Assembly (NCBI GenBank): GCA_019359675.1
Contig: JAHHGX010000009.1
Location: 1 to 64,000 of the forward strand
Direction: 5' to 3'
Origin: Calothrix sp. FI2-JRJ7
Lineage (GTDB): Bacteria > Cyanobacteriota > Cyanobacteriia > Cyanobacteriales > Nostocaceae
Length of the DNA: 64,000 bases
The notes beneath the pieces are model-generated. The model did not search any database, was not told where the DNA came from, and was given only the letters and a program-made list of their open reading frames with translations. Both the position numbers and the translations under genes were made by a program. Every line of letters starts with the position of its first letter. Position 1 is the first letter of the stretch. Shown in pieces: positions 17,116 to 30,906 of this stretch.

Positions 17116-18312
17116 TTAAGATATACTTTTCCTAATTTTTTTAACTCCTGATAAAGTAATAAGTGTGATGACAACTGCTGCTATAAGTACAAAAGGATGA
17201 TGTAAAAGTTGAGAAACAAGTATTGTGACGGTTGTGAGGACAAAGGCAACAAAGAAGCTTAAACTTACTGTTATGTTTTCTATCCATTCACCGAAAAACG
17301 GTATTAAGTTGAGTAGAGTATTTATTGGTTGTAGTGCGAATATTATTCCAAAGGACATTGCCGCAAACCCGATAAGTCGAAGTACCCATGTCCAAACAGT
17401 ATACTCAGAGTTTAAAATTTTTATTGCTTCATTTCGACTAGTGGCAAATAATTGGTAAAATTTGGTGTTTTTGGGAGCGTTATAAGCAGTTATTCGGTTT
17501 GATGATGCAAGTTTACCAAAAACTGTTACGGTTGAGTTAGACGGTATTACATTATAGCAAATACGTACATCTCCAATACTAGGATTTTCAGGCACCCCTT
17601 TTCCTTTGAAAAGATAATTATTCTTTAATTTAACGTCGTCACCACTTGATTTAATTAACTGTGCAGATAATTGTAACCTACTGTTACTATTTAAATAAAT
17701 ACCTTCTGCTGTTGGATATGACAATGCAGTTGAGTTACTATCGCATGAGGTTTTACGTTGCATTACCTCTTTAAAATCAGTCATGTTAATATCGTATAAC
17801 CCAACTTTTGCGCCGGATGTAGTGTAATATTGGTCTGAATATGCTTTCTTAGGATTGTAATGTGTTTGCGAATAGTTAAAATCACTTGAATCGCTAGGCT
17901 CGTTTGTCCATCCTTTGGTATATTTATAAGTAGTCGTCTTAGTGACTTTACCATCTAACATACTTTTTCTTTCTTCCGTTCGCTTCTCCTCACTCCAAGA
18001 AAACATTTCAACGGTTCTATCGACAACACTATATGAACCTGGGATTAAAAATAAATTATCACCTAAAGCTTGATTTGATGTAATTGTTCCAGTTGTAGAA
18101 ATAAATTTTCCTATTGCCTTTTTATTTGGTTGCGTTGCGGAAATTTCCACAGCAGTTTTAGCAATTTCTGATAAATTTAATCTACCCTCGTTCCAGAATA
18201 GCAAAATAAAAGATCCAAAAAATAAGATAAGCCCTAAAATTACTGCAAATAGAGAGCTACCGAACCTATCACCCCAACTATCGTCTACGACCTCTGTATA
18301 TTCTTCGCTCAT
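17116..18312 (-). CDS. TMEM43-family membrane protein
   Basis: A 398-residue protein with one N-terminal membrane helix (SLFAVILGLILFFGSFILLF), the motif WNEGR straight after it, a large extracytoplasmic domain, and three to four C-terminal helices (from WVLRLIGFAAMSFGIIFALQ on). This is the TMEM43/LUMA layout; bacterial members have no proven function, though a role in membrane organisation is often suggested. Eleven bases separate its stop from the pseudogene start on the same strand. The start ATG 18312 has GGAGG close upstream (AGGAGGTTATCAATG on the coding strand). Confidence 0.85.
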   Translation of the reverse strand: MSEEYTEVVDDSWGDRFGSSLFAVILGLILFFGSFILLFWNEGRLNLSEIAKTAVEISATQPNKKAIGKFISTTGTITSNQALGDNLFLIPGSYSVVDRTVEMFSWSEEKRTEERKSMLDGKVTKTTTYKYTKGWTNEPSDSSDFNYSQTHYNPKKAYSDQYYTTSGAKVGLYDINMTDFKEVMQRKTSCDSNSTALSYPTAEGIYLNSNSRLQLSAQLIKSSGDDVKLKNNYLFKGKGVPENPSIGDVRICYNVIPSNSTVTVFGKLASSNRITAYNAPKNTKFYQLFATSRNEAIKILNSEYTVWTWVLRLIGFAAMSFGIIFALQPINTLLNLIPFFGEWIENITVSLSFFVAFVLTTVTILVSQLLHHPFVLIAAVVITLITLSGVKKIRKSIS

Positions 18313-20199: not shown

Positions 20200-20931
20200 T
20201 TACTTACTCGCAGTAGAATTAGAAGAACACAACGAAACAATAAACTTATCACGTTGTTCTACAAAAGAAGCAGAAGGTTTATCAACTTCATACAACGACT
20301 GCAACGCATCCGACCAAGGAAGATAAGTTCTATCGCTGTTTTGATGCTTGATTTGATAATCTAAGAAATAGTGTGCTTTTTTGAGCGCAATATCTTCCGG
20401 TGATAATTTAGCTAACTTTGAGTTTTGCTCTAATGCTTGTAATCCGCTTTGAATTTTAGCACGTTCAGTTTCGGACATAATTTGGAATGTTACAGACTCA
20501 TTAAGTCCTCGTGATTTGTTGACTAACTGCCATTGATAAAGCTTACCTGGTTCCAAAGCTTTTTCGGTGCCATACACAAGCTTTTGTGCTGATGTATTAA
20601 CAGGTTGTCTCCAAACTTCGGTTTGACTATCGTACTCACGTACCACTAAATTAGCGTCTTGGTTTCCTGATGACTTCCATACAAACAGTGGACGTTCGTG
20701 CCAAAGTAAATATGTTTCAAAGATACCCGGTGTTATTGGGCAAACTCCACCAGAACGTGATGTTCTTAAAACTTTGCGCTCATCTTTCCGGCGCCATAAC
20801 CCAAAGAAATCTGCTACTCTAACTTGGGCAAATGTTTGAGTTGATGTCAGGTTCGTAAAGCTGTCTGTGGTGACAAAACTAGTTGCAAACAGCAAAATCA
20901 ACATGAACCGTAGATATTTTTTGTTAAGCAT
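20200..20931 (-). CDS. DUF928 family exported protein
   Basis: A 243-residue protein with a signal peptide (YLRFMLILLFATSFVTTD). The body has the DUF928 pattern: RTSRSGGVCPITPG, then beta-rich segments WHERPLFVWKSS and EPGKLYQWQLV, and a helical C-terminus with AHYFLDYQI. The family is almost confined to cyanobacteria and usually sits beside CHAT/CHASE2 genes. ATG 20931 is chosen: it has AAGGAGA upstream and overlaps the preceding gene's end by eight bases, so the two are translationally coupled. Likely works outside the cytoplasmic membrane, together with the CHASE2 sensor. Function unknown. Confidence 0.85.
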   Translation of the reverse strand: MLNKKYLRFMLILLFATSFVTTDSFTNLTSTQTFAQVRVADFFGLWRRKDERKVLRTSRSGGVCPITPGIFETYLLWHERPLFVWKSSGNQDANLVVREYDSQTEVWRQPVNTSAQKLVYGTEKALEPGKLYQWQLVNKSRGLNESVTFQIMSETERAKIQSGLQALEQNSKLAKLSPEDIALKKAHYFLDYQIKHQNSDRTYLPWSDALQSLYEVDKPSASFVEQRDKFIVSLCSSNSTASK

Positions 20932-23302
20932 GGTTTTGTCTCCTTGTCGCAGATAAAACATAAGCTAAGAATACCGATGATGGTAAAAACCAAGGAAGTA
21001 AAAGTGCAGCAGTTAAATATAATTGCAACGCTGCTACTCCGTATAACACAACTCCTATTAAGCTACCTGTGAGGATTTTCATCCTAATTTTTGGTGTTAA
21101 AGATGACTTGGATTTGAGAGTAAGCACAGCAATCTTACCGACTAAAATCGCAAGCGCAATTACCCAAATATCAGGTATTGGAGTAATTAAATGGCGCCGC
21201 ATAAAATGGTGAGTTGTGTATGCTAAAGATTGACCCCCTGTCATCCAAGTCTGTTCCGTCCAATATTTCATTGCTGTCGGTATTGGCATTCGGTCGGGTT
21301 GACCTGGTGCTTTTCCTAAACGCTCATCGTTTCCTGTTGCTATTAATACAGCTTGTTTTGATATCAATGGAAACTTGTTCGCATCTGGATTCTCCATTAA
21401 CTGCCAAGCAGGTATTTTGGTGTATACTTTGTCGGGAGGTATAGAAAAATCTATTATCGGTTGCTGTCCAAATAATGGGCGCCATTGTTTTAAAGCTGTT
21501 AAATCACCTTTTTTAGGTAATTTTGTTTTAATTGTATCAAGCAACTGAGTTCTTAAATCAATAGTTCCACCTGTGTTGGGTTTGGGTAAATCTGTTATTT
21601 CTTGGGTCGCTAATTGAGTTAGTGCCATCAAATAAGAAATCGGACATGTTTCGCGACACTCATTTTTAGGTAATTCCACGTAAGAAGGAAATGATTCTGT
21701 GTAACCTTGTAAAGTCCAGTTACGGTTTCTAATTCCGTTAGCATCATTAACACTCGCTTCTTTAGCTTCGTTTAAAATAGTCCCAAAAACAACCCATTTA
21801 TTTTCATTGACCGCACGACTTACTGCTGTTCCTAAATCTTTATCTGCTGTCGGTGGATATTTTTGCGGTGTATCAATTAAAAAATCTAAACCAATAACGG
21901 GTGCATTTAATTTTCGTACACGTTCCATTAACTCCGCTATATAACTACGGTTCATTGGTAAAATTTGTGAACTTGGTAGCTTACGTTTGGTAATGGACTC
22001 ACTATCTATTTCTACTAATGCTACTGGTGGCGCCTCATCAGATGGAATTTGATTCGTTGTGTTACGATAAACTGCTTGGGTAAATACTCTCCCATCAAGT
22101 AAAAAGTCCTGAACAGGAATCATTGTACCAACAGCAATAGTAACAGCTAACGCGACCCCTTCAATAATACTATTGGGTAAAACCACCTGCCTAATGCACT
22201 GATGCCAAGGTAACGATAGTGGAATTTTATATAACTCGGCGCCTGGATGACAGAATAAAGAAGGCAGTAAATAAGATGATGGATAAGTATGGGTTTTGTC
22301 TAAACGTAAAAATTGCCGTGCTTCCATCATCGACTCGTACACATTTAAGTGTTTACCTAATGAAAGCAAAAACTTAACTAAAAATTCCTGTGCGACCCGG
22401 TTGTGGACTGGTTCACGCATCACCATTACTTGGCTAAAGCCTAAATCTATCAAAGATTCAGCAATATTTAATCCACTGCACGAATTAAATATAGCAACTT
22501 TTAACCGACGTTGACGTGCTGTATTCAAAAGCGTTGCTATTTCTTTTATAGATATTGATACCCCTGGTGCAATTCCTAACTCACCCCCAGTTAAATCTGT
22601 TTCATTGCTATGTCCAGCAAAGAACAGCACATCCCATCCACGTTCATCAGCTATTGCATTTGTAATATTTTCAATTACTTGTAAAGCTGTTTGCTTAGGT
22701 TGCCACCCGACAAACTCCACATCAGCAATCTTTGATAATTCTTTTAAAGCTTCTCGTTCTTGTTGAAAGTCTAACCCAGTATCATCACCTAATATCGTTA
22801 AAATACGAGTGCGTCCTTTTTGCTGTAAAGAATGGTTGGGAGCGCTTATTTTTTGAGGAGAACGAATAATTTGGATTTTTCCAGCACTTTCCCAAGCTTC
22901 CCACGGAAATCTATCTAACTCAATAGGTGTACAAGTTAAAAATACCTTTATCGCTTGAGCTTGATTTAAATTACTGCCTTCTTGATTCAATTGTGCGCGA
23001 ATCTCATATAATTCAGCGCTTCGTAACCAACTATTAAATTCATAAGTCAACCTAGACTCAGCTTTAACTAGTTCTGCGTGCCAGTCAACCGAAAGCTCCG
23101 CAACTCCTCCACCAACTGCTTTTCCCCGCATTTCATCTGACTGGTAAAAGTTTAAATACGCTTTCTTCCAATCTTGATATATTTGAGTTAAAACGGTAGG
23201 ATAATCAACTTGTGCAGCTAACCTTTGTCCCTGTCCCCAGGACAACTCAAACAAGCATATTTGTTCTACTTTTTGAATTTTTAAACTAAATGAATGTTCC
23301 AT
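20924..23302 (-). CDS. CHAT (caspase-like) protease domain fused to a CHASE2 sensor with membrane helices
   Basis: A 792-residue fusion. Residues about 130-350 are a CHAT domain with the catalytic histidine in FFAGHSNET (about residue 231) and cysteine in FNSCSGLN (about 275). A membrane helix at about 383-402 (EGVALAVTIAVGTMI) leads to a CHASE2 extracytoplasmic sensor (DGRVFTQAVYRNTT, PPVALVEIDSESI, PVIGLDFLID), then two or three C-terminal helices. The catalytic part therefore precedes the sensor and should lie inside the cell. Third gene in a sigma-like / DUF1822 / CHAT-CHASE2 / DUF928 operon. Proposed role: a signal-gated peptidase; its target is unknown. Confidence 0.9.
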   Translation of the reverse strand: MEHSFSLKIQKVEQICLFELSWGQGQRLAAQVDYPTVLTQIYQDWKKAYLNFYQSDEMRGKAVGGGVAELSVDWHAELVKAESRLTYEFNSWLRSAELYEIRAQLNQEGSNLNQAQAIKVFLTCTPIELDRFPWEAWESAGKIQIIRSPQKISAPNHSLQQKGRTRILTILGDDTGLDFQQEREALKELSKIADVEFVGWQPKQTALQVIENITNAIADERGWDVLFFAGHSNETDLTGGELGIAPGVSISIKEIATLLNTARQRRLKVAIFNSCSGLNIAESLIDLGFSQVMVMREPVHNRVAQEFLVKFLLSLGKHLNVYESMMEARQFLRLDKTHTYPSSYLLPSLFCHPGAELYKIPLSLPWHQCIRQVVLPNSIIEGVALAVTIAVGTMIPVQDFLLDGRVFTQAVYRNTTNQIPSDEAPPVALVEIDSESITKRKLPSSQILPMNRSYIAELMERVRKLNAPVIGLDFLIDTPQKYPPTADKDLGTAVSRAVNENKWVVFGTILNEAKEASVNDANGIRNRNWTLQGYTESFPSYVELPKNECRETCPISYLMALTQLATQEITDLPKPNTGGTIDLRTQLLDTIKTKLPKKGDLTALKQWRPLFGQQPIIDFSIPPDKVYTKIPAWQLMENPDANKFPLISKQAVLIATGNDERLGKAPGQPDRMPIPTAMKYWTEQTWMTGGQSLAYTTHHFMRRHLITPIPDIWVIALAILVGKIAVLTLKSKSSLTPKIRMKILTGSLIGVVLYGVAALQLYLTAALLLPWFLPSSVFLAYVLSATRRQNHA

Positions 23303-23430
23303 AGCTCAGACGTAAAGGGGAAGGAAGTATCTTATTATTATGTATTTTGACTTACAGTTATATAACTAAAGTTTAAATTTTAATTTAAATTTCCGGTAAG
23401 AATTATAATTAATAGTAAACAGAGCGTTAA

Positions 23431-24738
23431 TTAACCTTCTAAGCCAAAAGGCTCAATTTCAAACACACTAGTATCATCAGCAGTCACCGTCACCCAGAAA
23501 CGGTCATTCGAGTCACCAAGAAGACGAGCGAAAAGAATTTCTTTGCTGCTGTCACCTTCTAGAGTTTGGTCAAACAATTGTTGCGTTTTATCACGAATTT
23601 CCAATCTTAAGGTTTGCGGGACTAGTGAACTTGAAATTGAGCGCACAACTATTAGTAACATCCACTCTGGGTTATCTGATACTTCATTTAATTCCCATAT
23701 AATTGCATAAAGTCTTAAAGCCGCACATTCTGAGTTTAAATCACGTGAGGCGCCTTGAGCATTTGAAGGAATGTAAATTTTTTGTTTTTCTAATGCTTCT
23801 CGAATTGGTTGAAAATCTTCACTTCTTCGTAATGCTGATGATGCTAAAGTTGGCATTAACATCCATCCTAACTCCTCGGCAACTGTATCAATTTGATTAA
23901 GTAACCAACGTCCAACATTGATAAAAGGTTGTATAGACTGACTTTTTGGCACATCTGTAACAACTTCTGCGCGTGTACATGCATATAACCAATCAATTAA
24001 ATGAGGGTTACTAAACAGTGTTTTCGCTTCATCCACCGTCAAAAACTGTGAAGGATGCTTTCTTAATTCAGATGGTAGCCTAGTTAACTTTTGCTGTAGG
24101 GCTGTGGATGTGTCAGTTTGTGTAGTTGCTATACTAGACTCTATAGGTAGATTAATTGCCCTAATATCTAAACACCGTAAATTTAGTAGCAGTGCATCAA
24201 CATCAAAATTAAGTATCTCATTTGGCAAACTATAAGTAAAATCTTCCTCAACTTGTAACAAAACTTGTTGTTTATAGCTTTGAAGCTGTGGATAACTCAT
24301 AAATCCAAACACATTAGCTTGCTGTAATTCTTCCTCAATATGCATCAACACATAAAAATGCGCTGCTAATTTAGGAACATCGACAACAGCAAAAGGAATA
24401 CTTTGTAAATCTCCAACCTTACTTGCCGTAATTACACAAACCTTAAAGGCACCGACTTGAACATTACAGGCAGCAGCAAGTATATTTGAGTAAGCAGGTT
24501 GCCAAATAGTTGACTTAGATACATCAACTTGTAAATCAGGCGCCCGTTCAACCATCCATTGTTCAAAGCCAATAGTACCTAAAGCATTCAAGTAAACTTG
24601 CCAACTTTGCTCAGGAGTAGAAATTCCCAAACTTAATTGTGCCGCACGTTGAATTTGTTCAGGCGCCAACTCGGTGCTATCATCACCAAGCGAGCAGAAA
24701 TCGAGCGAGTCAGTATCAAAAAAAGTATGTTGGTTCAT
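23431..24738 (-). CDS. DUF1822 family protein
   Basis: A 435-residue soluble protein. DUF1822 hallmarks include FGFEQWMVER-like IGFEQWMVERAPDL, a region FAVVDVPKLAAHFYVLMHIE, and VDEAKTLF plus WLLNQIDTVAEELGWML near the middle. It has no signal peptide or membrane helix. The family is cyanobacterial and co-occurs with CHASE2 and sigma-like proteins. ATG 24738 (MNQHTFFDTD) is preferred; the longer frame from 24795 reads back through a 23-base tandem duplication and a hairpin repeat. Second gene of the operon. Confidence 0.8.
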   Translation of the reverse strand: MNQHTFFDTDSLDFCSLGDDSTELAPEQIQRAAQLSLGISTPEQSWQVYLNALGTIGFEQWMVERAPDLQVDVSKSTIWQPAYSNILAAACNVQVGAFKVCVITASKVGDLQSIPFAVVDVPKLAAHFYVLMHIEEELQQANVFGFMSYPQLQSYKQQVLLQVEEDFTYSLPNEILNFDVDALLLNLRCLDIRAINLPIESSIATTQTDTSTALQQKLTRLPSELRKHPSQFLTVDEAKTLFSNPHLIDWLYACTRAEVVTDVPKSQSIQPFINVGRWLLNQIDTVAEELGWMLMPTLASSALRRSEDFQPIREALEKQKIYIPSNAQGASRDLNSECAALRLYAIIWELNEVSDNPEWMLLIVVRSISSSLVPQTLRLEIRDKTQQLFDQTLEGDSSKEILFARLLGDSNDRFWVTVTADDTSVFEIEPFGLEG

Positions 24739-24773
24739 AATATGCTGGTATATTGGTTCATAATATGCTGGTA
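24731..24773. repeat. tandem duplication, 23-base period, over the DUF1822 start
   Basis: The 20-mer TGGTTCATAATATGCTGGTA occurs at 24731-24750 and again at 24754-24773. Each copy contains the ATG of MNQ on the minus strand, so the second copy offers a spare start codon 23 bases upstream, in another frame. The duplication is followed directly by a GGTGCATGACG hairpin element. Confidence 0.85.
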
Positions 24774-24774
24774 G

Positions 24775-24834
24775 GGTGCATGACGGTATTAACAATTTTC
24801 ATACGAAGCTAGCCATCTAGTAGCGTCACGCACC
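24775..24834. repeat. GGTGYGTGACG hairpin element, copy 2
   Basis: Left arm GGTGCATGACG (24775-24785), right arm CGTCACGCACC (24824-24834). The right arm contains the stop and last codons of the sigma-like gene upstream in the operon, so the element was inserted into or grew over its 3' end. Confidence 0.7.
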
Positions 24835-26250
24835 AGATTGACCAGTTCCCGTTAAACCTCTTTTATCTAAACAAAGACAAAGACGGTGTGCAAACAGACT
24901 CTTGAGAGGTTGATTCCGAACAGGGTTTCTAGCTTCAGATTCTGCTTGTGCAATAATTTTATTAATTTGCTCATCTAGTGCTTCGTCAATTTTTTGGTCT
25001 AAGCATTGTAATTGTTCGATATCGATAAATTGTTTTGCTATATCAATAACCTTGCTACGTAAAATCATTAATAATCTTTGTCGAACATCCGCACGCAAAT
25101 CATTAAGTTTTAATAACCGTGTTACTTTATACTGTTGTTCGACTCCAATTTGCCGTGCAATTTGAGTCATAGACTCACCTCGACAGTGAAACAACTCTAA
25201 ACCTTTAATAAATGCTTCAACTTCGGACGGGCGCCGACGCTGCACTTTTATGATAAATTCTTCAATAACTTGAGCAAGTGCTTGGTCTAAAGATTCTATC
25301 AATTGTTGTTGATATAAATGAATAAACTCATTTTCTTCTTGGTCTTCATTATTGGACATTACTTGTTGACGCTCAAAAATAGGCTCAACTTCCTCTTGGT
25401 GATAAGATAACGTTTTAATGGCGCCACCTCGTGCAATAATTCGGTACTCTCGTAACTTAGCAGCAACAAACTGTAATTGCTTTAAAACACCTTCATTACT
25501 AAAAGTTTTTCCTATTCGAGTTTTTAAACCTTCGGCAATGCGAGATAGCTGCTCACCAGTTGGAGGTTGACAGGGTAACGTCGAACCCGCAAGAAACTGT
25601 AAACGGTCTGCACGGTATACTGCATGATAGCTAACCAGCAACTCACAAGCTTGTTGAACCTCAAACGTAGCCAAATGATACATCCCTGCTAAAATACGCT
25701 GTAATTCTTTAAGACTTGTATCATTCAACAATGCCCAATCGCTAACTAAAAACACACCATGCTGAAGTAAAAAATCTTTCAACTCTGAATGCTGTTTTAC
25801 ATAGCGACTCACCCAAGTATTAAGCAAACCTTTATCAGGGTTATAAGTTTCTAATATTGTCGTTGCCAAAGACTTATAAGAACCAGTTTTCTTTTGATAC
25901 TGAGAATTTTGTAGTACCTCATCTCCCAATACAATCGGTAATAAAGCTTTATAATTAAAACCGTGTTGCCTACCAAACTTGGCGCCTAAATCAACGCAAG
26001 CTTGGTAAATTTGATGAGAGATATAGCAGCGCAAACAAATTTCAGCCATGCTGTTACTTGCTTGCTGTTCGCGCATTAAATGCCAAAATTGTCGCTGTAA
26101 TGCAACATCCGAGTCATCAGCAAGTGTAGGAAACTGTTCGTGTAAGTAGTCTTCAGCTGCGTTAACCATTTCCCTAGAGGGACTACCATCATTGGATAGC
26201 TTGACAAATTCACAATACTTAGATATAAGAGCCACAGTGATTTTACTCAA
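24826..26250 (-). CDS. sigma-factor-like cyanobacterial protein of the CHAT/CHASE2 operon
   Basis: A 474-residue soluble, helical protein. No catalytic motif is visible. A C-terminal segment (GESMTQIARQIGVEQQYKVT, then RLLKLNDLRADVRQRLLMIL) looks like the helix-turn-helix of sigma-70 region 4, and the family is often annotated as sigma-like. The start is TTG 26250; the frame is closed by TGA just upstream, so no earlier start exists. A perfect Shine-Dalgarno (AAGGAGG) belongs to a seven-codon leader whose stop overlaps this TTG. The last codons lie in a hairpin repeat. First gene of the operon; it may direct transcription in response to the membrane sensor. Confidence 0.65.
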   Translation of the reverse strand: MSKITVALISKYCEFVKLSNDGSPSREMVNAAEDYLHEQFPTLADDSDVALQRQFWHLMREQQASNSMAEICLRCYISHQIYQACVDLGAKFGRQHGFNYKALLPIVLGDEVLQNSQYQKKTGSYKSLATTILETYNPDKGLLNTWVSRYVKQHSELKDFLLQHGVFLVSDWALLNDTSLKELQRILAGMYHLATFEVQQACELLVSYHAVYRADRLQFLAGSTLPCQPPTGEQLSRIAEGLKTRIGKTFSNEGVLKQLQFVAAKLREYRIIARGGAIKTLSYHQEEVEPIFERQQVMSNNEDQEENEFIHLYQQQLIESLDQALAQVIEEFIIKVQRRRPSEVEAFIKGLELFHCRGESMTQIARQIGVEQQYKVTRLLKLNDLRADVRQRLLMILRSKVIDIAKQFIDIEQLQCLDQKIDEALDEQINKIIAQAESEARNPVRNQPLKSLFAHRLCLCLDKRGLTGTGQSGA

Positions 26251-26266
26251 CGCTAATCATTATCAA
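26243..26266 (-). promoter_or_regulatory. leader mini-ORF overlapping the sigma-like start
   Basis: AAGGAGG (26275-26281, minus strand) is followed after eight bases by TTG ATA ATG ATT AGC GTT GAG TAA. The stop overlaps the TTG start of the sigma-like gene (TTGAGTAA). This arrangement suggests translational coupling or attenuation. A one-base deletion that split the original start from the gene would look the same. Confidence 0.45.
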
Positions 26267-26281
26267 TTGTTTCACCTCCTT

Positions 26282-27969: not shown

Positions 27970-30792
27970 TCAAGATGGTACATTAAATATTGCATCTAAT
28001 AAATATAAGCCTAAGTCTTTATTTAATGGTTCGTTATGCTGCGGACACCCTGATGCGTGTAAGCATCTAGGACATCCAGTTTCGCAGTCACATCCGGACG
28101 CTAGTGCATATGCTTTTGCGGCAAATTTACTTAGGTCGTGAAATATTGCTTCTGCGGCGCCGTTTCCTCCTTCGCATGTATCATAAAAGTAGTTGTATGT
28201 TCTACCTTCTTTCTCTGTAACAATACCATCTACATCTAGGCTCGATGATAATACTACCAACGGAACGGCTTTAATAATTTGATGTTGCAAACTATGAAGT
28301 GCGATAAAGTCAGAGGCGCCTGTCCATAGTGGTTGGTACATTTCAGGAATACTATTGCCATATTTTTGAATTATTTCTTGTTTTAATATAGAAACTTGCT
28401 CACGAAGTGCTTTTTTAACTCCTTCGTTCAAGTCTATTAATACACATGGCGCTTGATATTTGGTAACTAATGGTGTTTCAAATACAATTTCATCTTGCAG
28501 CGTTATAACTTCTGCTGCATAAATTTGGCGCCGACATTTGGGACAAGAGTTTCCTTCAAGAGATTTTTTAAAGTTTGCACATTGTTGATTTTTACAGGTT
28601 TTACCGTATATACGCTTCATTAAACGGTATCCTGTAACGCTAGTAGTTATTTCTCCCCAAGCAAGCGTTAATCTAATTCTACCATCATCAATATTGGTAT
28701 TAATAATTTTAGGCTGTGCGAGTGTAGATAAAGGTACTATATCTAATTCAGATTCTGCTTCTGTATATAAAGTTGTTTCTTTACCTAGATATGCAAGCTG
28801 CGCTTCTCCTTTCTCCACATTCAAACTTTCGCTACGGTAAGCGATAATATCACCGTTTTCATCTTGAACAAAATAAATTGCTTGGGGAAATACTTCGCGA
28901 TACGCAACTTCAAGAGACATTTTTTCAAGAATATCTCCTGAATGTTTATCAATCAAATTTATCGAAGTATTTGCAGCACTTCTTAAATTTACCTCTTTAT
29001 GTGGATAACCGCGACCCCACAACTTACCCCCATTACTCAAGTAAAGTTTATTTTGCTGTAGTAAAGAATCTGCTATTGTACCAGCGACATGGCCAAAACG
29101 GTGATTAATTTCTCTTAAAGCTAAAGCACTTTCTATACACCCACATTCCAAATGCTTACCCAATATAGTTGGATAATCAGGATTAAACGCACTACACTCA
29201 ACGTCTCCCGATAAAAGCTGCTGAGGATTCTTAGCGTAATATACATCAATTGGATTTTGTGCCAACGGTAAATATATTACTAGTCCATGCTGCTTGCGTC
29301 CTGCCCTTCCTACTCGTTGCCAAAATGACATTAAGCTACCAGGGAAACCACGGATTAAACAGCAATCAAGTTCAGGTAAATCAATACCAGCTTCCAAACT
29401 AGATGTAGAAATAATGACTTTTATTTGCCCCGACTGTAACTTAGAAATAATTTCCCGGCGCCTTTCTCCAATCAACGAGCTATAAAATAAAGCAACCTGG
29501 TTTGCTAAATGTCCGCATCCGGTACGTTGAGTTTCCCGTTGAATTAATCCTAATAAACCTTTCACAGCAGCACGCGAGTTACAAAAAACAATCCCGCTCA
29601 AGTTATGCTGTAACCAGGAAATAATCATTTTACTAGCTTCAACATTCGCAGCACTACTTGGTTCGAGACATAATAAAGTACGTCCTGCACTATCAGCACC
29701 ACTTTCTCGAATTAAATATGACCTATTAGGTTGTTGTGTCCTACCGCTAAATCTCAACGCCATTTCTTGAGGATTGCCAATTGTCGCACTCGAACAAATG
29801 AACTGTAACTTATGTGAATTACCACCAACAGCATCAACAGCTAACCGTAATCTTCGCATCAAGTTAGCAAAATGGGCGCCGAAAGCACCAATATAAGTAT
29901 GAGACTCATCGATGACTACATACCGTAACTGTCTCAAAAACAGGCGCCAACCTTCACCTTCTTGTGGGCGCCGTATGTTATATAGATAATGATGAAGTAA
30001 ATCGGGACTCACAGCCAAAACATTGGGAGGATAAGGAATAAACAACTGCTGTCTTTCATCCCTTGGAGTATCCCCCGTCATCAAAGCAATTTTAATGCGG
30101 TGGTTTGGAATAGCTTTCACTAACATTTGTAACTTCCGCATCTGGTCAAGCGCCAAAGCCTTGAGTGGAAAAATATATAATGCTCTAGTATCAGGTTGTT
30201 TAATACAAGCTTCAATAATCGGCAAATTGTAACAAAGCGTCTTACCCGAAGCAGTGGGAGTAGTAATAGTCAAATCATAACCCGCCCGTAGCTTCGCCAA
30301 AGCCTCCAACTGATGCGAATAAACTGTATTTACACAAATATTCTGCAAACCCAAATGTAAATTAGACGGTAAATCTTCAGGTATCGGGTGAATACTACCA
30401 CCAACACCAGATTGAATATTAACCCTAGTAATAGTCGTAGCAAAATCACGCGCAACAGACTGAAAAGCAACATTAGGAATCTTATCAATCTCCTCACCAA
30501 TCGCCGCAACATCACTACCAATATCAGAATTATCTAAGTTACTTCCTAAACTGGCGCCGCTTTCCTTAATCAACCCCTTCTCAACAACATCTTCCCAATT
30601 ATCAAACTGAGTCGGGTTAACCTCTTCAATAAACTTAACAATTAAACGCCTACCCAAAACAGCCATCACCTCTCCCACACCATACTCAGGAGAATAGACA
30701 AACTTAGAAGGCGCCAACCACTCAGGAGGTTCATTAATTTCTTGGTTAGCCGCACGGAGAATAGCAGCGTAATCAGTAGGCTTTTCAGTCAC
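27970..30792 (-). CDS. DEAD/DEAH-box helicase with DUF1998 zinc domain (YprA/MrfA type)
   Basis: A 940-residue superfamily 2 helicase. Motifs include TTPTASGKTLCYNLP (Walker A), IDESHTYIGA (DESH box), CSSATIGNP, the helicase C domain GIVFCNSRAAVKGL and VGRAGRKQHG (motif VI). The C-terminal DUF1998 part has four cysteines in CDCETGCPRCLHASGC, as in the MrfA DNA-repair helicases. A second CxxC pair (CKNQQCANF and CPKCRR) forms another zinc site. GTG 30792 (VTEKPTDYAA) is preferred. The longer frame to 30885 reads through a hairpin repeat and gives a non-homologous N-terminus. No defence partner lies next to it. Confidence 0.88.
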   Translation of the reverse strand: MTEKPTDYAAILRAANQEINEPPEWLAPSKFVYSPEYGVGEVMAVLGRRLIVKFIEEVNPTQFDNWEDVVEKGLIKESGASLGSNLDNSDIGSDVAAIGEEIDKIPNVAFQSVARDFATTITRVNIQSGVGGSIHPIPEDLPSNLHLGLQNICVNTVYSHQLEALAKLRAGYDLTITTPTASGKTLCYNLPIIEACIKQPDTRALYIFPLKALALDQMRKLQMLVKAIPNHRIKIALMTGDTPRDERQQLFIPYPPNVLAVSPDLLHHYLYNIRRPQEGEGWRLFLRQLRYVVIDESHTYIGAFGAHFANLMRRLRLAVDAVGGNSHKLQFICSSATIGNPQEMALRFSGRTQQPNRSYLIRESGADSAGRTLLCLEPSSAANVEASKMIISWLQHNLSGIVFCNSRAAVKGLLGLIQRETQRTGCGHLANQVALFYSSLIGERRREIISKLQSGQIKVIISTSSLEAGIDLPELDCCLIRGFPGSLMSFWQRVGRAGRKQHGLVIYLPLAQNPIDVYYAKNPQQLLSGDVECSAFNPDYPTILGKHLECGCIESALALREINHRFGHVAGTIADSLLQQNKLYLSNGGKLWGRGYPHKEVNLRSAANTSINLIDKHSGDILEKMSLEVAYREVFPQAIYFVQDENGDIIAYRSESLNVEKGEAQLAYLGKETTLYTEAESELDIVPLSTLAQPKIINTNIDDGRIRLTLAWGEITTSVTGYRLMKRIYGKTCKNQQCANFKKSLEGNSCPKCRRQIYAAEVITLQDEIVFETPLVTKYQAPCVLIDLNEGVKKALREQVSILKQEIIQKYGNSIPEMYQPLWTGASDFIALHSLQHQIIKAVPLVVLSSSLDVDGIVTEKEGRTYNYFYDTCEGGNGAAEAIFHDLSKFAAKAYALASGCDCETGCPRCLHASGCPQHNEPLNKDLGLYLLDAIFNVPS

Positions 30793-30807
30793 AATTATTA
30801 CAAATAG

Positions 30808-30868
30808 GGTGCGTAACTGCATTAACCAACCACAAACAAAACGAAAAATCTCAATGCAGTTACGCACC
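30808..30868. repeat. GGTGCGTAACTGCATT hairpin element, copy 4
   Basis: Left arm GGTGCGTAACTGCATT (30808-30823) is the exact reverse complement of AATGCAGTTACGCACC (30853-30868). Same outer GGTGCGT as the other copies but a different inner arm. It supplies the possible N-terminal extension of the helicase frame. Confidence 0.8.
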
Positions 30869-30906
30869 ATCTTAATACATTTCATTCAATCAGATAAAAT
30901 GTTTTC

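Follow-up and report, generated by a model that had tools for sequence, protein, structure and literature searches.

EACC2-caspase proteins consist of a constant alpha+beta module, a caspase domain and a variable C-terminal domain, for example CHASE2, and most of their TRADD-N-independent gene neighbourhoods include genes for an extracytoplasmic function (ECF) sigma factor and a DUF1822 protein, for which a transcriptional output was proposed in 2021 (PMC8195603). In type III-E clustered regularly interspaced short palindromic repeats (CRISPR) systems, the CHAT protease Csx29 cuts Csx30, an inhibitor that attaches to CASP-sigma and blocks it (PMC10028731). We have analysed a locus of Calothrix sp. 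FI2-JRJ7 that brings together similar parts. It lies at positions 20200-26250 of contig JAHHGX010000009.1 (assembly GCA_019359675.1), within the first 64,000 nucleotides of the contig, the whole stretch that was analysed and that is called the window below. Four open reading frames (ORFs), placed by the initial annotation at 26250-24826, 24795-23431, 23302-20924 and 20961-20200, are indeed present, all on the minus strand. They encode, in this order, a sigma-like protein, a DUF1822 protein, a CHAT-CHASE2 protein and a DUF928 protein.

We propose, tentatively and with rather less than even confidence, that this quartet is a transmembrane signalling unit. A periplasmic signal would be read by the CHASE2 domain jointly with the exported DUF928 protein and would activate CHAT, the cysteine peptidase that the same protein carries on its cytoplasmic side. 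CHAT would then cleave the neighbouring DUF1822 protein, whose role until then would be to hold the sigma-70-like protein in check; once free, the sigma would redirect RNA polymerase. The conserved gene set, the intact active site, the predicted membrane segments, the homology and fold of the sigma-like protein and the pairing of DUF928 with CHASE2 come from computation. What is inferred is that a periplasmic signal activates the protease, that DUF1822 is both the inhibitor of sigma and the substrate of CHAT, and that the sigma-like protein is active as a sigma; cleavage and sigma release are suggested by Csx29, which cleaves an inhibitor bound to CASP-sigma. The initial annotation had read the four genes as one pathway running from an outside signal through protease activation to the release of a regulator. 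There is good support for a single functional unit that combines a sensor in the periplasm, a protease in the cytoplasm and an output in transcription; the interpretation as a whole is partly supported.

Conservation of the four-gene set

Two genome samples were used. For the order sample the window's sigma-like protein served as query and gave matches in 72 of 243 genomes of the order; 60 neighbourhoods, with one anchor each, were taken from 53 of these 72 genomes so as to include the strongest matches and a spread of weaker ones, and a locus was considered to have room if at least 5.5 kb lay downstream or if its gene order was permuted. The 79-locus sample consists of loci from named cyanobacteria, each anchored on its sigma gene; it derives from the 80 best among 168 confirmed matches. 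The two samples overlap in genomes and their counts are therefore not additive. A DUF1822 gene is present in 75 of the 79 loci and all four genes in 51 of the 62 with room; the order sample has DUF1822 near the anchor in 52/60 neighbourhoods and a complete quartet in 27/46 with room. Two loci (L066 and L067) carry all four genes in a permuted order. The closest sigma-like relative among the loci kept in the 79-locus sample is from Calothrix sp. HK-06 (94%). The ratio of non-synonymous to synonymous substitution rates (dN/dS) was computed for each of the four genes with five relatives, and these 20 comparisons give 0.08-0.38. Since the gene set is kept across many genomes and its dN/dS is in this range, a chance neighbourhood can be rejected. 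The initial annotation had named poor co-occurrence of the four families as grounds for abandoning its proposal; their co-occurrence is strong in both samples.

The host genome (8.66 Mb in 91 contigs) contains further sets. Profile searches give 19 matches to DUF1822, 20 to CHASE2 and 13 to DUF928, some of which are pieces, and the window's own DUF928 protein is not among the 13. Leaving out the nineteenth DUF1822 match, a fragment with an internal stop, a sigma-like ORF lies directly upstream of 16 of the 18 DUF1822 genes; one more is recognised weakly and one has none. These sigma-like ORFs were recognised by profiles built from the families themselves. Full same-strand sets occur in the window and at L012, L014, L015, L016, L017 and L018, of which L014 has a broken CHASE2 frame, L015 one additional ORF and L016 an additional CHAT-CVNH gene. 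L019 has no recognised sigma, and at L009 and L011 the two halves of the set are separated.

Over nine of these paralogous sets the evolutionary distances of CHAT, CHASE2 and DUF928 correlate mutually (r 0.89-0.91), and those of DUF1822 correlate with CHAT (0.46, p 0.02), CHASE2 (0.50, p 0.004) and DUF928 (0.40, p 0.04). Without the window the values are 0.68 for CHAT-DUF928 (p 0.0009), 0.55 for CHASE2-DUF928 (p 0.02) and 0.48 for CHAT-CHASE2 (p 0.01), and for DUF1822 they are 0.16 with CHAT (p 0.18), 0.26 with CHASE2 (p 0.035) and 0.04 with DUF928 (p 0.37). In the seven contiguous sets DUF1822-CHAT reaches 0.69 (p 0.015); without the window it is 0.40 (p 0.10) and no different from CHAT-DUF928 at 0.35 (p 0.09). 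The contrast in the nine sets might suggest freely exchanged cassettes, {sigma, DUF1822} and {CHAT-CHASE2, DUF928}. It is doubtful because the halves lie apart in two of the sets (L009 and L011), and as it disappears in the seven contiguous sets we treat it as a hint only and reject the model.

The CHAT-CHASE2 gene (20924..23302, minus strand, as are the other features of the locus) encodes a predicted membrane protease of 792 residues with an N-terminal region, a CHAT domain, a transmembrane segment, a CHASE2 domain and C-terminal transmembrane helices. Pfam identifies CHAT (PF12770) at residues 112-337 (22292..22969; E 2.5e-08, 34.2 bits against a cut-off of 24) and CHASE2 at residues 389-721 (21140..22138; E 3.1e-16). 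As the initial annotation had stated, the peptidase has an intact His and Cys: the putative catalytic dyad, His231 (22610-22612) and Cys275 (22478-22480), is invariant in every one of the 118 modules (109 unique) that were aligned across more than 80% of the profile. The CHASE2 match and the hydropathy profile, with stretches at about 372-402 before CHASE2 and about 703-732 and 739-785 after it, also agree with the proposed membrane placement of this putatively sensor-gated protein. From the domain order we infer that CHAT is cytoplasmic and CHASE2 periplasmic. About 110 residues ahead of CHAT align across the family, and there is no Pfam TPR match in the protein at E up to 0.1. Comparison of the CHAT and DUF928 profiles with solved structures gave no convincing relative, and NCBIfam gave nothing. 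No gRAMP/Cas7-11 gene was found in the region of 17.1-30.9 kb, in a scan that covered eight of its 11 listed ORFs, all but three of 111-134 residues.

DUF928 and the CHASE2 sensor

The DUF928 gene probably starts at ATG 20931 (20200..20931), slightly inside the nominal ORF, which extends to 20961 (253 residues). Its product scores below the Pfam cut-off for PF06051 (E 0.011, about 16 bits against 26). In an alignment of 30 relatives, DUF928 is recognised in 21 with E no higher than 0.01 (7.4e-61 for the best), a number that includes the window's own protein (0.0097), and five of the 30 are host paralogues found earlier with the Pfam model. Membership of the window protein in DUF928 thus follows from homology via intermediates. 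It is predicted to have a signal peptide and to be exported. An N-terminal hydrophobic stretch of 12 residues in 49 of 55 relatives is in line with this; two of the 55 have such a stretch beyond residue 90.

The association of DUF928 with the sensor can be examined where domains have been exchanged. We considered CHAT ORFs of at least 300 residues with 1.5 kb on each side and looked for DUF928 within 2.5 kb. In the host genome DUF928 is near 11/11 CHAT-CHASE2 genes and 1/4 genes with CHAT only (Fisher p 0.009), the single CHAT-only case standing in tandem with a CHAT-CHASE2 gene. The figures for the order sample are 25/29 and 0/5 (p 0.0005). The 79-locus sample has DUF928 near 47 of 52 CHAT-CHASE2 genes and contains no CHAT-only gene for comparison. 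Altogether, one of nine CHAT genes without CHASE2, the tandem case, has DUF928 beside it. In place of CHASE2 the nine proteins carry nSTAND1 (L120, L123), nSTAND1 with WD40 (L119, the same as L206), Peripla_BP_6 (L014), pentapeptide repeats (L020), CVNH, the cyanovirin-N domain (L016), or nothing recognised besides CHAT (L023, L114, L115).

Two of these genes can be described further. The CHAT protein with a C-terminal CVNH domain (L016:9338-10948) is encoded in tandem with a CHAT-CHASE2 gene. At L014:13356-15995, CHAT is fused to a Peripla_BP_6/ANF-receptor ligand-binding domain, and a sigma/DUF1822 pair lies beside it on the opposite strand.

The converse exchange was found in a DUF928-anchored sample of 49 cyanobacterial genomes, a few of them closely related, of which 14 have DUF928; its 60 stretches hold 66 of the 67 matches outside the host genome. 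Using a family-specific profile, a same-strand CHASE2 gene is found within 2.5 kb of 39 of 65 DUF928 ORFs, compared with about 1% expected by chance (from 20 CHASE2 matches in 8.66 Mb). Of these 39 neighbours, 27 encode a CHASE2 protein that lacks a CHAT module. A Pfam check of ten from the 27 recovered CHASE2 every time; it is joined to a histidine kinase in five, a nucleotide cyclase in three and a Ser/Thr kinase in one, and stands alone in the tenth. The 26 DUF928 ORFs that have no such neighbour count against a strict rule.

The gene junction is of interest here. With its start at ATG 20931, the DUF928 gene begins within the stop of the CHAT-CHASE2 gene in an 8-base overlap, ATGCTTAA (20924..20931), which is likely to reflect translational coupling. 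Exactly 8 bases are shared in 39/53 pairs of the 79-locus sample, a count that leans to 8 since the start nearest to such an overlap was chosen, although a start codon must exist there. DUF928 travels with the CHASE2 sensor whatever the output, be it protease, cyclase, histidine kinase or Ser/Thr kinase, and the domain swaps, the DUF928-anchored sample and the gene overlap together assign it to the sensor.

These results allow a broader reading, which we regard as possible with the balance of probability against it: CHASE2 and an exported DUF928 co-receptor would form a plug-in receptor whose output can be a histidine kinase, a Ser/Thr kinase, a cyclase or CHAT, the CHAT version cutting DUF1822 and freeing sigma. 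Receptor and protease would then be united in one protein, a membrane counterpart, by analogy, of Csx29-Csx30-CASP-sigma. As sensors are swapped on CHAT and outputs on CHASE2, a genome might contain many parallel protease-sigma channels.

The same domain swaps bear on an alternative, a conflict system acting against invaders or in cell death, in which CHAT would cut itself or cellular proteins while sigma and DUF1822 mainly control the cassette or a defence regulon. The replacement of CHASE2 on CHAT proteins by nSTAND1, nSTAND1 with WD40, pentapeptide repeats, Peripla_BP_6 and CVNH would fit such a system, as would the fusion of a sigma-like domain to an AAA_35 ATPase domain (L203 and, by eye, L204; see below), and the 2021 prediction is one of autopeptidase activation with an ECF-sigma step in biological conflict (PMC8195603). 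However, PADLOC gives just one weak match for the four proteins (BovA, E 0.0072), a periplasmic sensor is no less suited to a signal from the environment than to an invader inside the cell, and the kinases and cyclases with which DUF928 is also paired are ordinary signalling outputs. We consider a conflict role unlikely, though it deserves to be kept in mind.

The DUF1822 and sigma-like proteins

The DUF1822 gene (23431..24738) is likely to start at ATG 24738, again slightly inside the nominal ORF, which extends to 24795 (454 residues). It matches its family in Pfam (PF08852, E 1.7e-45, 156.1 bits against a cut-off of 25). The predicted model has a mean predicted local distance difference test score (pLDDT) of 86.1 and shows an alpha/beta domain at the N terminus, helices in the middle and, towards the C terminus, a beta-sandwich of eight strands (residues 325-429). 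The tandem helical hairpins of a TPR fold are not seen in it, nor does Pfam give a TPR match. The best structural match of the N-terminal domain is nuclease D212 (Z 9.1), HJC being lower (Z 6.7). We rejected an active nuclease since this moderate fold match is accompanied, as judged by eye, by no ExK pattern in the conserved columns, and no nuclease activity is claimed. Foldseek matches of the model at E <0.001 are PDIP38 (2.1e-04) and the ApaG domain of FBxo3 (3.8e-04); with TM-scores of 0.15-0.17 these are taken as a common beta-sandwich. Csx30 is absent among the fold matches listed, which excludes nothing. Hydropathy indicates one short hydrophobic stretch just above the threshold and the protein is probably soluble.

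DUF1822 is our candidate for the sigma inhibitor and protease substrate, by analogy with Csx30. Its gene adjoins the sigma gene, a frequent position for inhibitors, and accompanies it at more loci than CHAT does: of the loci with room in the 79-locus sample 60/62 have DUF1822 and 56/62 have CHAT, and in the order sample the figures are 40/46 and 34/46. Two other observations were set aside. The conserved linker (about residues 261-303), considered as a cleavage or docking site, reaches just the 74th percentile of conservation, and its Trp motif occurs, by a relaxed pattern, in five of 18 host DUF1822 proteins, so that it was dropped as evidence. An apparent sigma-DUF1822 fusion (L205), with broken pieces of CHAT and CHASE2 next to it, has the look of a deletion that brought two truncated genes together, and was not used.

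The sigma-like protein (24826..26250, 474 residues) starts at TTG 26250 or at GTG 26235, the position aligned with the family's usual start. Three kinds of such proteins can be distinguished: type C, that of the window; type A, six proteins of the host genome; and type B, a short kind. All six type-A proteins exceed the Pfam cut-off for Sigma70_r4 (29.7-39.3 bits against 24.1), and Sigma70_r2 matches two of them, one just above the cut-off. Profile alignment of types A and C gives a probability of 98.8 and E 1.1e-16 over 312 columns, and the type-C profile, run against 18 proteins, recovers four of type A (E 1e-07 to 1e-11). The model of the window protein has a pLDDT of 88.6. In the VIA structural comparison 48 of the 50 matches listed are, by title, sigma factors or RNA polymerase complexes (Z 6.5-7.6), the sigma factor WhiG included; most span about residues 19 to 398. 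The sigma-2 part taken alone superposes with a root-mean-square deviation (rmsd) of 3.9 over 104 residues. The family conserves a FDP..SL.TW stretch, which we take to resemble sigma region 2, and six residues of the helix-turn-helix are invariant in 59/59. Profile comparison and model thus argue that the window protein is a homologue, though a diverged one, of sigma-70, with a predicted sigma layout, which may have sigma activity. The initial annotation had recognised a sigma region 4-like helix; this description understates the case, since the paralogues match region 4, two of the six also match region 2, and the model resembles sigma factors over both ends.

Several results weigh against the proposed unit and against its sigma component. 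Some of the loci with room are incomplete (11/62 in the 79-locus sample and 19/46 in the order sample), and CHAT is absent nearby in 6/62 and 12/46. In the former, five loci lack DUF928 only, four have only sigma and DUF1822 and two have no partner in range. In the latter, six have no partner, six have DUF1822 only, three lack DUF928 only, and in the other four DUF928 is absent and the CHAT protein lacks CHASE2. Some sigma and DUF1822 pairs therefore have no CHAT gene nearby. The co-variation of CHAT and DUF1822 swings from r 0.16 to 0.69 with the sets taken, and profile and fold searches found no solved structure that resembles the whole of DUF1822. For the window's sigma-like protein Pfam gives no sigma match with E of 1 or less. 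Run against 63 type-C proteins, the type-A profile (six members) detects just eight at E <0.001, and that of type B detects none; comparison of profiles likewise shows no link of type B to types A and C (probabilities 1.4 and 7.4). Foldseek gives no significant match for the sigma-like model, the best being sigma-S (E 0.049). The VIA matches remain below Z 8 (best 7.6), with a whole-length rmsd of 14-18 A, so that the domain arrangement of the model differs from that of solved sigmas.

Two further alternatives concern the sigma-like protein itself. CHAT might degrade or trim this protein, DUF1822 being an adaptor and not an inhibitor. A poorly predicted loop (residues 281-300, pLDDT <50) could house a cleavage site, and the sigma and DUF1822 genes can, as noted, remain paired without CHAT. 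We think this improbable, as in the sole CHAT/sigma system studied the protease acts on the inhibitor instead of the sigma (PMC10028731). Lastly, loss of sigma function, leaving a DNA-binding or adaptor protein of sigma descent, would suit the missing Pfam match, the weak matches among 25 relatives (one each for Sigma70_r4, E 0.014, and Sigma70_r4_2, E 0.04) and the best sequence match of the family profile to a solved structure, the helix-turn-helix of a deoxyribonucleoside regulator (E 0.0003), yet it is quite improbable given the sigma-like fold at both ends of the model, the FDP..SL.TW stretch with its putative likeness to region 2, the six invariant residues and the homology to type-A proteins that all pass the Sigma70_r4 cut-off.

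Other occurrences of the window-type sigma-like sequence were recorded. At L203:6868-9735 and L204:6588-9476 it forms a domain behind a large N-terminal region (proteins of 955 and 962 residues), which is an AAA_35 ATPase domain in L203 (E 2.7e-26) and looks alike by eye in L204. Six genes (L077, L079, L084, L089, L093 and L098) have neither DUF1822 nor CHAT within the distances used. No relative was found in viral contigs.

The non-coding parts of the locus offer possible control elements. A short leader frame, TTG..TAA (26243..26266), has a stop that overlaps the TTG start of the sigma-like gene, and is preceded by a ribosome-binding site, AGGAGGTG (26273-26280). The surrounding block is kept in seven aligned Calothrix-group sequences; in L127 the start codon of the frame is not conserved. 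Together, the leader frame and the strong ribosome-binding site may exert translational control of the sigma-like gene. The stretch between the DUF1822 and CHAT genes (23303..23430), with an AT-rich block kept in close relatives, is possibly a second promoter; strong matches to the block ahead of CHAT were found in just six Calothrix-group loci of 39 examined. A common promoter or autoregulation motif was rejected, the mean best match upstream of 74 sigma genes being 11.1 compared with 10.8 for shuffled sequences, and promoter and terminator scans of the region gave counts at chance level.

Elsewhere in the window, the palindrome GGCGCC occurs 134 times (about 3 expected from base composition), while GCGATCGC, the cyanobacterial HIP1 octamer, is absent; GGCGCC looks like a different highly iterated palindrome. 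Positions 17116-18312 (minus strand) encode a membrane protein of the TMEM43 family (E 6.9e-47), a family best known from animals, and 27970-30885 (minus strand) a DEAD-box helicase with an MrfA zinc-binding domain.

Relation to known systems

If the transmembrane signalling unit is correct, DUF1822 and DUF928, two families of cyanobacteria to which no function has been assigned, would acquire one, and a partner, and the many CHAT proteins beside sigma-like genes in this large filamentous-type genome would be explained. Protease-controlled sigma release would become testable outside CRISPR with purified proteins. The link between DUF928 and CHASE2 can be tested apart from the protease question.

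The type III-E system of Csx29 (TPR-CHAT), Csx30 and CASP-sigma likewise encodes a CHAT protease, a candidate substrate and a sigma-like protein together. Csx29 is activated by a CRISPR RNA target and has a TPR part (PMC10028731), whereas the window's CHAT protein would be activated by a membrane sensor and has no TPR match. Proteolysis of an inhibitor also frees a sigma factor in the RseA/DegS/RpoE system of Escherichia coli and with RsiW of Bacillus subtilis, as is proposed here. In those systems the inhibitor's transmembrane segment is cut (PMC10028731), while in the present locus the protease bears the sensor and membrane part and DUF1822 is probably soluble. HetF of Anabaena is, similarly, a membrane CHAT-domain protein of a filamentous cyanobacterium; it is described as CHAT, one transmembrane segment and TPR repeats, without CHASE2, and as a divisome component (PMC8406250).

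The EACC2-caspase systems are alike in their variable C-terminal domain, the window protein having CHASE2 and transmembrane helices, and in their sigma and DUF1822 neighbours, the window's sigma being recognised by homology and not by Pfam. The sigma-like protein of the window is long (474 residues) and diverged compared with an ECF sigma. The paper calls DUF1822 a TPR protein, in contrast to the alpha/beta domain, helices and beta-sandwich of the present model. It ties CHASE2 to the TRADD-N-linked version, and the combination of CHASE2, sigma and DUF1822 is not spelled out in its accessible sections (PMC8195603). DUF928 is not mentioned in its text. Since EACC2-caspase, ECF sigma and DUF1822 are described there together, a class with most of the present parts is already known as a prediction (PMC8195603).

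Searches of open-licence papers turned up no earlier account of the general pairing of DUF928 with CHASE2, of the overlap between the genes or of the fold of DUF1822, and the general tie of DUF928 to the CHASE2 sensor appears to be new. Adjacent CHASE2 and DUF928 genes, as in the present locus, have been reported in Nostoc punctiforme as one lineage-specific cluster with WD40 genes (PMC5587647), whereas the pairing described here recurs across genomes and across outputs.

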